A program made the translations under genes and the position numbers. Shown here one piece after another: positions 8,488-13,815 of a stretch of 64,000 nucleotides of DNA. Position 1 is the stretch's first letter; every line of letters starts with the position of its first letter. Location of the stretch: assembly GCF_008271365.1 (NCBI RefSeq), contig NZ_CP043430.1, forward strand, positions 1 through 64,000, read 5' to 3'. This DNA is from Microbacterium sp. 1S1 (GTDB lineage: Bacteria > Actinomycetota > Actinomycetes > Actinomycetales > Microbacteriaceae). The notes under the pieces were generated by a model that made no database searches, had not been told where the DNA came from, and saw only the letters and a list, made by a program, of their open reading frames with translations.

Positions 8488-9084
8488 ATGGCTACCGACG
8501 TCGAGCACGCCAAGCGAGCCCTCCGCGCGGAGCTGCGCGAGCGGCGTCAGCTTCTGTCCGATACGCAGCGCGAATCCGCTGCCGCCGCGATCGGAGAACG
8601 GCTCGACGCCCTGGTGGACGAGCTCGGTGCCCGCTCGGTCTCCTGCTTTCTCTCCACCACCACGGAGCCCGGCACGCGCGAGTTCGTGACGAGGGCCGTC
8701 CGGCGCGGGATCAGGGTGCTCCTCCCGGTCACCCGCTCGGACGGGCTGCTGGACTGGGCCGTCGCCGACGACACCGACGAGGTCTCCGAGGGACTGCACG
8801 GTCTGCCCGAGCCGACCGGCGAGGTGCTCGGGCCCATCGCAGTGAACGACGTGGACCTGATGATCGTGCCCGCCGCCGCCGTCGACCGCTCGGGCATGCG
8901 GATGGGCTGGGGCCGCGGCTACTTCGACAAGACCATCGGCTCCATGGAGAAATGCCCTCCGGTGTACGCGGTGATCTATGATTCCGAGGTACTCGACGAA
9001 CTGCCGCGTGAGGTGCACGATCAGCCGGTCGACGGCATCGTGACCCCGTCGCAGACTCTGCACCTGTCGCCACGGCGACGCTGA
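8488..9084 (+). CDS. 5-formyltetrahydrofolate cyclo-ligase
   Basis: This cytosolic enzyme uses ATP to convert 5-formyl-THF to 5,10-methenyl-THF, recycling an inhibitory folate. The family motif GMRMGWGRGYFDK (about residues 136-148) supplies the Mg/ATP phosphate-binding loop. The basic N-terminus with KRALRAELRERR also fits. At 198 residues it is full length. There is no Shine-Dalgarno: the -10 TAGACT at 8476-8481 places the transcript start on the ATG. It is followed 15 bases later by the zinc-ribbon gene, then mscL. The order cyclo-ligase, FmdB-like protein, mscL recurs in Actinomycetota. Confidence 0.94.
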   Translation: MATDVEHAKRALRAELRERRQLLSDTQRESAAAAIGERLDALVDELGARSVSCFLSTTTEPGTREFVTRAVRRGIRVLLPVTRSDGLLDWAVADDTDEVSEGLHGLPEPTGEVLGPIAVNDVDLMIVPAAAVDRSGMRMGWGRGYFDKTIGSMEKCPPVYAVIYDSEVLDELPREVHDQPVDGIVTPSQTLHLSPRRR

Positions 9085-9099
9085 CCCGCAAGGACCGCC

Positions 9100-9372
9100 A
9101 TGCCCACCTACGCCTATGCCTGCACCGCGTGCGGGCACCAGTTCGATGCCGTCCAGAGCTTCTCCGACGATGCGCTCACGGTCTGCCCCGAATGCGGCGG
9201 CGCGCTGCGCAAGCAGTACGGCTCCATCGGCGTGACGTTCAACGGCTCCGGCTTCTATCGCACGGACTCGCGCGCCAAATCCGGAGGTTCGAAAGAGGCT
9301 TCGGCATCATCGAAGTCGGATTCGACGACGAGCGCCAAACCGGCCGCTGCGTCGACTCCCGCCTCGAACTGA
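9100..9372 (+). CDS. FmdB-family zinc ribbon protein
   Basis: A 90-residue protein with an N-terminal zinc ribbon. It begins MPTYAYAC, and the pairs CTAC (residues 8-11) and CPEC (about 31-34) should hold one zinc. The second half is a low-complexity Ser/Lys/Ala tail and is probably disordered. AAGGA lies six bases before the ATG. It is named after the FmdB regulator of formamidase genes, but for most members, including this one, the role is unknown. It sits between the cyclo-ligase and mscL genes and is very likely cotranscribed. Confidence 0.9.
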   Translation: MPTYAYACTACGHQFDAVQSFSDDALTVCPECGGALRKQYGSIGVTFNGSGFYRTDSRAKSGGSKEASASSKSDSTTSAKPAAASTPASN

Positions 9373-9396
9373 GGCGCCGTCGACTTGGGGGTTTCC

Positions 9397-9828
9397 ATGC
9401 TCAAAGGTTTCAAGGACTTCCTGCTCCGCGGGAACGTCATCGATCTGGCCGTCGCGGTCGTCATCGGCACCGCCTTCACGGCCGTCGTGACGGCGGTGGT
9501 GAACAGCGTCATCAACCCGCTGATCGCGCTCTTCCTCAAAGCCGACGCCGCCGGCAAGTTCGGCATCCCCGTCACGAACATCTATGGCGAGACGGTCGTC
9601 TTCCCGATCGGCGACCTCATCTCGGCGATCATCAGCTTCCTCGCGGTCGCCGCGGTGGTCTACTTCGTGTTCGTGCTGCCGATGAACACCTTCAAGGCGC
9701 ACGTCGAAGCGCGCAAGGGAACGCCGGCCGAGGAGCCGCAGGAGGAGCCGGCGGCCGCGACCGAGGCCGAGCTGCTCGTCGAGATCCGCGATCTGCTCAA
9801 GGCCCAGCAGGGGCCGCGCGGCGCCTGA
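9397..9828 (+). CDS. mscL: large-conductance mechanosensitive channel MscL
   Basis: A homopentameric inner-membrane channel that opens under membrane tension and releases solutes during hypo-osmotic shock. The start MLKGFKDFLLRGNVIDLAVA is the diagnostic amphipathic helix plus first membrane helix. The second membrane helix is at about residues 65-90, and a charged C-terminal helix ends in EIRDLLKAQQG. I take the ATG at 9397, with GGGGG just upstream, rather than the TTG at 9385, giving 143 residues. The C-terminal part has an acidic Glu/Pro-rich linker (EEPQEEPAA). A hairpin terminator follows at once. Confidence 0.96.
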   Translation: MLKGFKDFLLRGNVIDLAVAVVIGTAFTAVVTAVVNSVINPLIALFLKADAAGKFGIPVTNIYGETVVFPIGDLISAIISFLAVAAVVYFVFVLPMNTFKAHVEARKGTPAEEPQEEPAAATEAELLVEIRDLLKAQQGPRGA

Positions 9829-9899: not shown

Positions 9900-10097
9900 T
9901 CAGTAATGCGGGGGCACGTCACGGAGGAGCTGATCGTCGTTGGGACCCTTCCGGCCGCCCGGGACGGATCGGCGCGGCGGCTCGGCCGCTGGGGCCTCGG
10001 GCGCCGGGTCGCTGCCGGGAACCGCGGTCAGTCGTGCGCGCCGCGAACCCGGCACCCGGACGACGCGCTGACGCGCCTCGTCCCGGTCCTCAGTCAT
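9900..10097 (-). CDS. small hypothetical protein (65 residues)
   Basis: Not recognised as a named family. Its ATG overlaps the stop of the upstream helicase-like gene by eight bases, so translation is probably coupled. The protein is basic and Pro/Arg-rich with no membrane segment, and ends in DDQLLRDVPPHY. Short actinobacterial proteins with a similar C-terminal pattern exist as far as I recall. The overlap and codon use typical of the neighbours suggest a real gene. Its convergent neighbour is the mscL terminator. Confidence 0.6.
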   Translation of the reverse strand: MTEDRDEARQRVVRVPGSRRARLTAVPGSDPAPEAPAAEPPRRSVPGGRKGPNDDQLLRDVPPHY

Positions 10098-13000
10098 TCC
10101 GGTGGTCGCCGAGGTCGAGAGGCTGCGTGTCGTTCTCCGCGCGCGGGGCCGTCTCTGAGATCCCGAGGACCGTCGCGATCCGCGACGCGACGGTGCGCGG
10201 GTCGCTGTAGAGGTCGAACGCGTGGACGCGGACGTAGTGCCAGCCGAGGCGGCGGAGGACGTGCGGACGCAGGCGCAGGGTCTCGCGCAACGACTCCCCG
10301 CGGGATTCCGGGTCGGGCTCGATCACCACGGCCTTGCCGTTGTGCTGTGCCACGAGGGGCAGGAGCCCCCGGTAGTCGACGTCGACGGAGGCACCAAGAC
10401 GACGCAGCTCCCTGGCCAGCGCCAGGGTGAGCGGATCGGCCAGGTCCTCCAGTCGCGCGTCGCGGGCCCGCGCCGCGAGACCGCCGAGGATCGACATGAG
10501 CGTCGCCGCACCGTGCTCGAGACGACCGTCGTCGAACGCCGAGGGCCGGATCGACGACACGATCACCATCGAGCGCCGCGCGCGGGTCATGCTCACGGTC
10601 AGCAGTCGCTCGCCGTCGGGGGTCGACAGGTCACCGAAGTCGCTGAGCACCCGTCCGTGCTTCGTGAGCCCGAAGCCGAGGGAGAAGATCACCCGGTCAC
10701 GGCTCTCCGCCACCGACTCCTCGAGCGTGAGCACGGCGAAGGGTTCCGCGGTGTCGCGGGAGACGAAGTCCGCCACATCGGAGCGCCCGGCGAAGGCGGC
10801 GGTCACCGCCGCGCGCACGCGCTCCGCGTGCCGCGCGCTCGCGGTCACGACCATGAGCGACTCGGCCGGACGATGTACCGCGTGCTCCACCACCAGGGTC
10901 ACGACGCGAGCGACCTCGGCGTCGGGGCTCTCGACCGCCCCGGAGACCGGGTCCGGCGTTCCCGTCCCGCCCTCGACGTAGTCGACGGTCAGGCTGCCGC
11001 GCCCGAGGTAGGAGCCGGCCCAGGGCAAAGAGACGATCTCGCCGCCGTAGAACGCGTCGTTGATGAGTTCCGCGAGGTCCTCGCCCCCCGCCCGGTAGCT
11101 CCGGGTGAGGGTCATGACCGGGAGGAGCTCCGACAGCCGCTCGAAGACGGACACGTCGTCGAACGGGACCTCGGCCTCCCACTCCTCACCCGGGTCGACG
11201 GCGATGCGGAAGGGGGTGGGGCGCTGAGTCACCGGATCGCCGAAGGCGACGACTTGGCGAGCTCGCCGGATGGCCGGGGCCGCCTCGGCGAGGTTGATCG
11301 CAGCCGCGTCGACGAGCAGCACGGTGTCGAACTCCACCGCGTCCGGGATCTCGGGTACGCGATACGGCGACGAGATCCAGACCGGAGCCAGCACGTCCAC
11401 GAGGGCGGGAGCGGCGCTCACGATCTCGGCGGCCGTCGTTGACGTCTGGGTGAGCGCACGGCGCAGGTGCTGCGACTGCTCAGGCTCGTCGACGATGGCG
11501 ATGCGCCACTGGTTCGCGAGCTGCCACGCCAGCAGCGGTCCCGCCATCGCCGCGTGCGCCTCGTCCACGAGCCGGAAGTCACGCTCCAAGCGGTCGACCA
11601 CGGCGGTGTTCGCGCCCAGCAACGCCCTGTTGTCCTGGAGCGCGCGCTCGAGGAGGGACTGCCACCAGGCGAACTCGAGCTCCTCCCCCACGCGCGCCTC
11701 GGACACGTGACGGACGGAGAGCTCGGTGAGCAGGGGCTCCAGGCCCAGCAGTGCGAGCTTGTCGCGCAGCTGCGCACGTTCGACGAGGTTCTCGAAGACG
11801 TCCGACTTCGCGGCGAGGCCGGCCAGCATCCGCACGAGTCGCGCAACGGGCAGCGACGACAGGGGCTCTCGGCGACCGAGTGCCGCATCCAGCTCCGCGA
11901 GCTCCGCTTCGACCCGCTGCCAGGCGGCGGAAACGTCGGCGAGGCCGAGGGGGATCTCCGGCGCGACGCCGGCGTCCACGTAGCGCTGCCACTGGGTGCG
12001 CTGCGTCTGGATGCGCAGCAGCGCCTCGTGCATCTCGGTCACGTGCACCCCGGGGCGCACGTACTCCTTCGCCAGCCGGCGGAGCCGTCGGCGGTTGGCC
12101 CCGGACATCCCGGGCGCATCGCGCCGCGAGCCGTGGGCCTGGATGAGCTCCCCGAGGGGGCGCTCGAAGACGGTAGGGCTGAAGCGGTCGAGGGTGTCCC
12201 GGATCCCCTGCAGCAGCCGGAGATACTCGCCGAGCTCGTCGATGGTGGAGAACGGCCGCATGTGCGTCTGCGCGATGAGTTCGTAACCGCGCTCCAGCAG
12301 GGCGGGCACGCTGTCGGCGTGGAGGCGTCCGGCGAGCTCGTGCGCAGCCCGCGCGGCTTCCGTGCTCCCGAAGCTGACTCCGTACCAGGGCGAGTCGTTC
12401 GGCCCGACGCGGAACTCGCCGAGCCGCGCAGCCTGCGCCAGCGTCGCCGCCGCCTCCGTCCGGTCCTTCGCCAGACGCCGCAGCGCGTCGACACTCAGCC
12501 GCGCCGTGGTCGACGGGGGGACCGGAAGCGAGGCGAGTCGGGTGAGCTCTCTGGTGGCGTCGAGGACGGAGGCGTCCAGGCCCGGGACCGGCACCGTCAG
12601 CGCGTCCCGGTAGTCGCGCAGCACCGTGCGCAGTCGGACGAGCGCGTCGTCGACCTCGCCGACCTTCGGAGCCGTCGCCTTCTCGTTCCGGCCGATCGCG
12701 CGGACGAGGTCGCGCCGCAGGCTCGTCGGGGACACGGCGAGACTGTCGAGGCCGATGCCGGCGAGGCGGTGGCGCACACCGTCCAACGTGGACCGGCGCG
12801 CGGAGACGACGAGCACCTTCTTGCCTGCGCGGACCAGCTCACCCAGGGCGTTGATGACGGTCTGCGTCCCTCCGGTCCCCGGGAGCGTCGCAACGGTGAG
12901 CGAATGCCCGGCGGCGACGCGGGCGAGAACCGCCTCCTGCTCCGCGTCGGCGTCGAGGAGCAGGTTGTCCGACGCGGGCGCGCGGTCGTCGGGACCCACA

Positions 13001-13809
13001 TGGTGCGGGATCGCGCGGGCCGCCGTGACCTGCTCCCGATCGCCGACATGACCACCGAGCGCGTTCAGCATCACGTGGTCGAGTCCGCTCCCGTCGCGGG
13101 ACATCGCGCCGGCGACGTCCGCGAACGTGGAGACGACGAGCCGGGGCTCGACGGAGAACGTGTCGATGGAGCGGGTGAGGGCACGCAGGCTGTCGATCAC
13201 CGGCTGCGGCTTGAAGATGCCCCCGTCGTACGCGAGGGCAGCGAGCGCCGCTGCGTCGAGGGACAGCCCGAAATGCTCGCGAGTGATCCGGACGAGCTCG
13301 GGGTTGACTTCGAAAGTGCCCTGCAGCTTCAGCTCGAAATCGGTGTGATGGCGCCGGATCGCCAATGGCCGGAGCAGGACGGGCGCGGCGAACCCCGCTC
13401 CACCGATGCGCCAGCGGGCGACGCCGACGGCGAGGTGCACGGCTTCGATGCCGCGGACCGTGCGCAGTTCGGTGTTCTTGGCGGTGATCCGCTCGGCGGC
13501 CAGCCGTGCCGTGCGTAGTCCCACCTCGTCCCGGAAGAGGTTGGACAGGAGCGTCGACTTGCCGGTGATGAACTGAGGAAGGCTGCCGGGGTGCGCCTTG
13601 GAGATGTCGATGCCCGACTCCGGACCGTCACGGAAGCTGCTCAGCGGCGAGGGACCGCCGAGATCGGCCGCCTCCGCGCGCAGCCGTGTCCGCTCGGCCT
13701 CGGCCGCATGCGCGATGCCGACACCGGTGGATGCGTCGTGCAGGTCGCCGAGGGACACAGCGCTGTCCACCGCCGTGTCGTCCGCAGACCTGCTTTCCCG
13801 TCGCCACAC
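10090..13809 (-). CDS. SF1 helicase-like protein with C-terminal REase-like domain, catalytic motifs degenerate
   Basis: A 1239-residue protein with the layout of actinobacterial DUF4011/MTES_1575 helicase-nucleases. It has an N-terminal region (1-280), a first RecA-like part, a long helical insertion (about 390-750), a second RecA-like part and a C-terminal restriction-endonuclease-like domain (about 1110-1220). The core motifs are eroded. Walker A reads LPGTGGTQT (309-317), with Gly for the essential Lys. Walker B is LLVDAAA, lacking the catalytic Glu. Motif III is AFGDPVTQRP instead of GDPKQLPP. Motif V has VAES where QGDE is usual. Motif VI, VSMTRAR, is intact. In the nuclease-like domain, VVIEPD keeps an ExD-like pair, but the preceding Asp appears replaced. 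The GTG at 13809 is chosen because TAGGGT ends six bases before it; a GTG six bases further upstream is the alternative. Function unknown: possibly a DNA-binding pseudoenzyme. Confidence 0.82.
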   Translation of the reverse strand: MWRRESRSADDTAVDSAVSLGDLHDASTGVGIAHAAEAERTRLRAEAADLGGPSPLSSFRDGPESGIDISKAHPGSLPQFITGKSTLLSNLFRDEVGLRTARLAAERITAKNTELRTVRGIEAVHLAVGVARWRIGGAGFAAPVLLRPLAIRRHHTDFELKLQGTFEVNPELVRITREHFGLSLDAAALAALAYDGGIFKPQPVIDSLRALTRSIDTFSVEPRLVVSTFADVAGAMSRDGSGLDHVMLNALGGHVGDREQVTAARAIPHHVGPDDRAPASDNLLLDADAEQEAVLARVAAGHSLTVATLPGTGGTQTVINALGELVRAGKKVLVVSARRSTLDGVRHRLAGIGLDSLAVSPTSLRRDLVRAIGRNEKATAPKVGEVDDALVRLRTVLRDYRDALTVPVPGLDASVLDATRELTRLASLPVPPSTTARLSVDALRRLAKDRTEAAATLAQAARLGEFRVGPNDSPWYGVSFGSTEAARAAHELAGRLHADSVPALLERGYELIAQTHMRPFSTIDELGEYLRLLQGIRDTLDRFSPTVFERPLGELIQAHGSRRDAPGMSGANRRRLRRLAKEYVRPGVHVTEMHEALLRIQTQRTQWQRYVDAGVAPEIPLGLADVSAAWQRVEAELAELDAALGRREPLSSLPVARLVRMLAGLAAKSDVFENLVERAQLRDKLALLGLEPLLTELSVRHVSEARVGEELEFAWWQSLLERALQDNRALLGANTAVVDRLERDFRLVDEAHAAMAGPLLAWQLANQWRIAIVDEPEQSQHLRRALTQTSTTAAEIVSAAPALVDVLAPVWISSPYRVPEIPDAVEFDTVLLVDAAAINLAEAAPAIRRARQVVAFGDPVTQRPTPFRIAVDPGEEWEAEVPFDDVSVFERLSELLPVMTLTRSYRAGGEDLAELINDAFYGGEIVSLPWAGSYLGRGSLTVDYVEGGTGTPDPVSGAVESPDAEVARVVTLVVEHAVHRPAESLMVVTASARHAERVRAAVTAAFAGRSDVADFVSRDTAEPFAVLTLEESVAESRDRVIFSLGFGLTKHGRVLSDFGDLSTPDGERLLTVSMTRARRSMVIVSSIRPSAFDDGRLEHGAATLMSILGGLAARARDARLEDLADPLTLALARELRRLGASVDVDYRGLLPLVAQHNGKAVVIEPDPESRGESLRETLRLRPHVLRRLGWHYVRVHAFDLYSDPRTVASRIATVLGISETAPRAENDTQPLDLGDHRND

Positions 13810-13815
13810 ACTCAC

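Follow-up and report, generated by a model that had tools for sequence, protein, structure and literature searches.

The closest described relatives of the gene considered here are anti-phage proteins. ProA (NF058533) and Hhe (NF042953) are DUF4011-type proteins of about 1900 amino acids that, like the PADLOC family PDC-S37, combine a helicase with an MTES_1575 nuclease. The MTES_1575 domain was named by Anantharaman and others (PMC3710099), and the part of that paper dealing with the naming protein gives it more than 2100 residues and further domains. Helicase folds without motor motifs are also on record. Excerpts of the respective reports describe Deinococcus PriA (PMC4504706) and Utp25 (PMC9539457) as pseudohelicases, and RecC (PMC1185551) and AddB (PMC4824097) as having inactive helicase-like or nuclease-like parts. 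We analyzed a large gene in a 64,000-nucleotide stretch of Microbacterium sp. 1S1 (contig NZ_CP043430.1, positions 1 to 64,000; here the window), whose genome is a single contig of 3.40 Mb. Its protein is kin to ProA, Hhe, and PDC-S37 in helicase and nuclease, and it is followed by a small gene, here the tail gene. We consider it probable that a defence-type helicase-nuclease was joined to the tail gene and turned into an ATP-independent scaffold, and that it is now a core gene of its order. An old enzyme of the defence type would thereby have turned into a housekeeping component without catalysis.

The large gene occupies positions 10090 to 13815 of the minus strand, the strand to which the initial annotation had to be corrected, and the long intact frame that it had reported is indeed open. 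The first GTG is at 13815, an alternative GTG is at 13809, and the stop ends at 10090, giving a protein of 1241 or 1239 amino acids; residues are numbered here from GTG 13809. Pfam searches returned AAA_12 and MTES_1575, both near but under the cut-off (for the MTES_1575 family PF18741, 21.7 bits versus a cut-off of 38.2, whereas the orthologue L140, with intact motifs, scored 71.3). NCBIfam scores were 287.2 bits for ProA and 143.1 bits for Hhe, far under the cut-offs of 1500 and 2000, and among PADLOC models PDC-S37 scored 287.7 bits and Hhe was also matched. The kinship to phage-defence helicases that had been proposed is therefore real. The best protein relatives (best 120 of 1797) are named Microbacterium. 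The predicted structure (mean predicted local distance difference test score [pLDDT], 91.4) has the two RecA-like domains of a UPF1-like superfamily 1B (SF1B) helicase.

Unlike ProA and Hhe, the window protein has lost its motor residues, is encoded by a core syntenic gene, and has a tail partner. It also differs from the UPF1-like SF1B helicases IGHMBP2, DNA2, UPF1, and SETX/Sen1 in having no Walker Lys, Asp-Glu pair, or QGDE. With the naming MTES_1575 protein, as described in the relevant part of PMC3710099, it shares a C-terminal Vsr-like nuclease, but the two are not orthologues. PriA, Utp25, RecC, and AddB, as far as the excerpts cited above describe them, resemble the window protein in having a helicase fold without motor motifs but belong to other families; in the window orthologue group, unlike these, members that look active occur beside members that look inactive, and the body comes with a detachable tail peptide.

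Motif states were read against aligned intact orthologues. In the Walker A region, LPGTGGTQT (residues 309 to 317; 12859 to 12885, minus strand, as for all motifs here), the Lys is Gly 314. In the Walker B region (residues 827 to 837; 11299 to 11331), a gapless alignment pairs the canonical FDVVIFDEASQ with FDTVLLVDAAA, so that Val 833 stands in place of the Asp and Asp 834 in place of the Glu. This motif had been called eroded through loss of its Glu; the erosion stands, but the acidic residue that is lost is the Asp. Motif III (VVAFGDPVTQRP, residues 853 to 864; 11218 to 11253) has GDPVTQRP instead of the GDxxQLPP of intact orthologues, with loss of the Gln, and motif V (residues 1029 to 1045; 10675 to 10725) has V-A-E-S in place of QGDE but keeps RD..I. 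Motif IV (LTRSYRAG, residues 901 to 908; 11086 to 11109) keeps Tyr 905 and Arg 906, and motif VI (GERLLTVSMTRARRSM, residues 1066 to 1081; 10567 to 10614) keeps Arg 1076 and Arg 1078. In the Vsr-like nuclease domain (about residues 1125 to 1215; 10165 to 10437), the intact IDLAV reads LPLVA, which puts Pro 1151 in place of the first catalytic Asp; Glu 1164 and Asp 1166 are kept. Apart from the Walker B residue, the losses and the persistence of motifs IV and VI agree with the initial annotation. The window protein thus has neither the Walker Lys, Asp-Glu pair, motif III Gln, and motif V of an active UPF1-like SF1B helicase nor the intact Walker A and B motifs of ProA and Hhe (Gly 314, Val 833, and Asp 834 instead), and it has probably lost both ATPase and nuclease activity.

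These substitutions are conserved. Among the close orthologues (the best 80 of 312 relatives from a scan of genome contigs; 69 to 96% identity in the best segment), LPGTGGTQT is present in all 80, every frame is open and longer than 1200 amino acids, and the gene adjoins mscL in all 80 of these Microbacterium-type loci. The ratio of nonsynonymous to synonymous substitution rates (dN/dS) against the 12 nearest orthologues was 0.045 to 0.068. Over Microbacterium pairs the median was 0.25 (3142 of 3160 pairs passed the filter on dS, which is near saturation). Among decayed pairs elsewhere, 3 of 22 (23 tried) had ratios above both intact pairs (0.265 and 0.271), with a maximum of 0.48. The conservation in 80 of 80 orthologues, the low dN/dS, the near-universal retention described below, and the good model fold argue that the loss has been retained under selection for a role without catalysis, as had been proposed. 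Judged by its residues, the large protein can be classed as a pseudoenzyme (pseudohelicase), with catalytic residues lost, the loss conserved, and purifying selection acting.

Matches at an E value of ≤0.001, part of which are long, non-orthologous relatives, were found in 149 of 150 family genomes, 146 of 149 order genomes, and 33 of 148 genomes of a class sample. The missing family genome is 82% complete, and the three missing order genomes are 62, 92, and 95% complete. A profile search (profile A1) recovered orthologues in three f19 genomes with weak initial matches, no orthologue in G094 and G274, and fragments next to other relatives in G178 and G124. Outside the order, its full-length orthologues came from 12 of 138 genomes in the class, ten of them from f38 and one each from f25 and f45 (counted by hand). 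The strongly reduced genome G015 (0.93 Mb) retains the large gene (L165), and no tail was found in its flank of about 5 kb.

Motor loss extends through most of the orthologue group. The 123-row alignment excludes identical sequences, L162 and L163 for want of a match, L156 to L161 and L164 as long or weak, and 75 of the 80 close-orthologue loci, all 80 of which were read for LPGTGGTQT. Its Walker Lys column holds 13 residue types (G, 46; A, 15; R, 13; V, 11; Q, 8; K, 7; and others). The Lys and the Asp-Glu pair are both present in 7 rows and both absent from the other 116. Asp occupies position 834 in 93 rows, G313 is kept in 104, and T315 or Ser is found in 100. In family f1, the loop positions G311, G313, T315, and Q316 are at the 83rd to 97th percentile of conservation. 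In f4, the P-loop is broken well past the Lys (for example, ASGRNGVSSA), and the gene is retained. An enlarged count covered 135 of 137 rows, with G197 (L145 and L294) and G182 (L155 and L293) counted twice. All 10 intact rows (from 9 genomes) had the first nuclease Asp, as opposed to 20 of the 125 decayed rows, the latter 20 mostly from f6 and f7, so by this reading of the alignment nuclease decay is common yet incomplete. Asp 1166 (about 10312 to 10314), the nuclease motif's second acidic position, is present in all 135 rows, including the 125 decayed ones.

Motor motifs and the nuclease Asp are intact in orthologues from f5, f18, and one f45 genome, which argues that the ancestor was a helicase-nuclease. 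The f5 and f18 forms have the same tail gene and MscL/FmdB neighbourhood and are therefore regarded as orthologues; the f45 genome has neither the tail gene nor MscL/FmdB at the place of the large gene. The nearest named relatives of intact L140 are from Angustibacter, followed by Pedococcus, Phycicoccus, Nostocoides, and other Dermatophilaceae. In a 52-row tree rooted on two long relatives, the intact rows (f45, f5, and most of f18) are basal and the Lys-less rows form three groups. Parsimony gives three Walker Lys losses on both trees. A tree constrained to a single Lys-less clade was 2.1 log units better and was not rejected (approximately unbiased test, p-AU 0.556), and we treat no more than one loss as demonstrated. 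Because the long relatives carry intact motifs too, intact motifs are the ancestral state, whether there was one loss or three. Orthologues with intact motifs, which the initial annotation would have taken as a sign of local decay, do exist, but they lie in other families and are basal, and thus they speak of ancestry.

The tail gene encodes a 65-amino-acid protein ending NDDQLLRDVPPHY (9900 to 10097, minus strand); its ATG and the large-gene stop overlap by 8 nucleotides, in agreement with the coupled small protein noted earlier. Of the 123 orthologue rows, 16 have a PPHW/PPHY-like tail as part of the large protein and 94 have one downstream (110 of 123 linked); none was found in the other 13, five of which have less than 300 nucleotides of flank. 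Three others, from f38, have less than 1 kb of flank, and a tail match was found farther off in the same genomes. Families with fused forms are f1 (six rows), f6, f10, f14, f16, f18, and f19. When one motif rule was applied throughout, with fused tails counted, it found the tail in 98 of 110 downstream flanks; the controls gave 0 for downstream antisense, 0 for upstream, 1 for upstream antisense, and 8 of 615 for random in-gene windows. Where at least 450 nucleotides were available downstream, a separate tail open reading frame was present at 169 of 192 loci, with a possible start overlapping the large-gene stop in 129 of the 169. The natural fusions argue for a joint function of the large protein and the tail, and in the two-gene forms the body and tail may likewise be in contact.

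The tail family extends beyond the helicase. A profile of 26 tail proteins matched 127 of 149 order genomes and 101 of 148 class genomes at an E value of ≤0.05, the class matches being partly weak; at ≤0.01 it matched 84 of 148 class genomes (hand count) and, in the phylum outside the class, 1 of 91, within a 564-amino-acid frame. In 18 class stretches around such matches (L255 to L272), the tail open reading frame was found in 17, MscL in 10, an FmdB-like gene in 12, and one or both of these genes in 13. The tail gene thus occurs near mscL without the large gene elsewhere in the class. Throughout the order, the helicase gene occupies the mscL/tail place. In f38 it lies at the tail gene or close by, and the f45 genome has it at a different location. 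The tail gene seems to have been associated with mscL for longer, and more widely, than with the helicase. The f22 tail forms end in PPHH. Genes for a response regulator, a histidine kinase, a PDZ protease, and a MoCF-domain protein precede the tail gene in one f22 stretch; such a series is known as mprA-mprB-pepD-moaB2. No relative of the tail protein was found in Pfam or NCBIfam, nor a solved structure in the PDB at E values up to 5; named database copies (best 120 of 1640) are "hypothetical" or "uncharacterized," apart from one odd label. Nothing was found in the open-access literature on the large-gene orthologue group or the PPHW-tail family. CrsL, compared by its description in part of PMC12709188, is also small, disordered, and conserved in actinobacteria. 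We rejected it as the tail protein: it ends Thr52-Val54, has Cys38 and an operon with otsA, and is given no PPHW tail in that description.

In the scenario that we favor, the ancestor, related to ProA and Hhe, would have combined a functional UPF1-like SF1B helicase with an MTES_1575 (Vsr-like) nuclease in one protein. This gene would have been joined to a small-protein gene with a C-terminal PPHW/PPHY peptide. A few lineages would have stayed active-looking, while in most of the order, the window included, the motor residues disappeared, generally along with the first nuclease Asp. The body of the large protein would have been kept under purifying selection, with the tail as an overlapping downstream gene or, in several lineages, a C-terminal fusion. 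The present protein would work without ATP, as a scaffold holding or controlling the tail peptide and a putative ligand, perhaps with nucleic acid contact retained. Because some families keep the gene with a P-loop broken beyond the Lys, the retained task is probably ATP-free, and therefore a scaffold for the ligand of the tail is favored. A more specific version is possible, and we offer it tentatively: a class-wide actinobacterial PPHW/PPHH tail, ancestrally beside mscL, binds a universal core machine and in one order is carried by a defence-type helicase-nuclease that shed its motor and, for the most part, its nuclease (parsimony counts three losses, but a single one would also fit), becoming an ATP-independent scaffold. 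An equally tentative corollary is a domesticated immune enzyme with living intermediates, intact, part-decayed, and fully decayed, with the tail in trans or in cis.

Several observations weigh against the scaffold reading. T315, D834, the motif VI arginines, and nuclease Asp 1166 persist, the first nuclease Asp survives in the 20 decayed rows noted above, and the large protein may still bind nucleotide or metal. No tail was found at L165 and L180 despite about 5 kb of flank, and in the model of a fused orthologue (L175) the tail has pLDDT values of 52 to 68 in its last four blocks and is not docked with confidence. Relying on the 12 nearest pairs for dN/dS is a choice that favors the reading, and one loss and several losses both appear compatible with the trees.

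Some of this evidence would fit a nucleotide switch, in which the P-loop frame binds nucleotide without hydrolysis and shifts shape, making the protein a sensor rather than a pure scaffold. The well-conserved f1 loop and the frequency of Asp 834 speak for it, but the 13 residue types in the Lys column and retention of the gene with loops such as that of f4 make it unlikely. The protein could instead guide nucleic acid for an active enzyme as an inactive subunit of a DNA-processing complex. A helicase fold with motifs IV and VI kept would suit this, and the inactive domains of RecC and AddB, in the excerpts cited above, are precedents; but no DNA-repair gene was found among the conserved neighbours tested (mscL, FmdB, cyclo-ligase, galU, and SSF), and the conserved partner is the tail protein, so we regard such a role as rather improbable.

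Kinship to ProA, Hhe, and PDC-S37 raises the question of whether the protein still acts against phages, through an unusual active site or as a guarded decoy. We consider this very improbable, since defence genes are patchy, whereas this gene is near-universal, syntenic beside mscL, and present as a single core copy. The ProA score, moreover, is far from its cut-off, and the same genome (G000) carries a separate ProA/Hhe-like relative of 1892 amino acids (C1:3086613-3091103, at about 3.09 Mb) that keeps all the motifs (GPPGTGKSQT, FDEASQ, GDDKQLPP, HYRS, QGDERD, TRAR, and nuclease ECDG). The immune decoy offered by the initial annotation is accordingly not upheld. The loss of so many catalytic motifs might also have meant local decay or a pseudogene, an explanation with next to no probability left, because it is refuted by the 80 of 80 conserved open orthologues with identical Walker A letters and by the dN/dS of 0.045 to 0.068.

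Pseudohelicases are mostly known singly. Here, active-looking and inactive-looking orthologues occupy one place in the genome, so that a change from motor to scaffold can be traced and tested in pairs. The analysis also brings to light a family of small proteins for which Pfam and NCBIfam have no model, and its sharply conserved C-terminal peptide could be used as bait. The PDC-S37 score, PADLOC thresholds aside, implies that defence scans could miscount a core gene as a defence gene.

The conserved neighbours in the window lie on the plus strand: mscL, a convergent neighbour (9385 to 9828; Pfam MscL, 122.5 bits), an FmdB-like zinc-ribbon gene (9100 to 9372; Pfam Zn_ribbon_8, 65.4 bits), and a 5-formyltetrahydrofolate cyclo-ligase gene (8488 to 9084; Pfam, 125.8 bits). 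Records titled Planococcus sp. APC 4015 and Streptomyces sp. AC495_CC817 (L061; P0053 and P0304) carry Microbacterium-like copies of the large gene, with 72% and 89% identity, and are probably mislabelled genomes.

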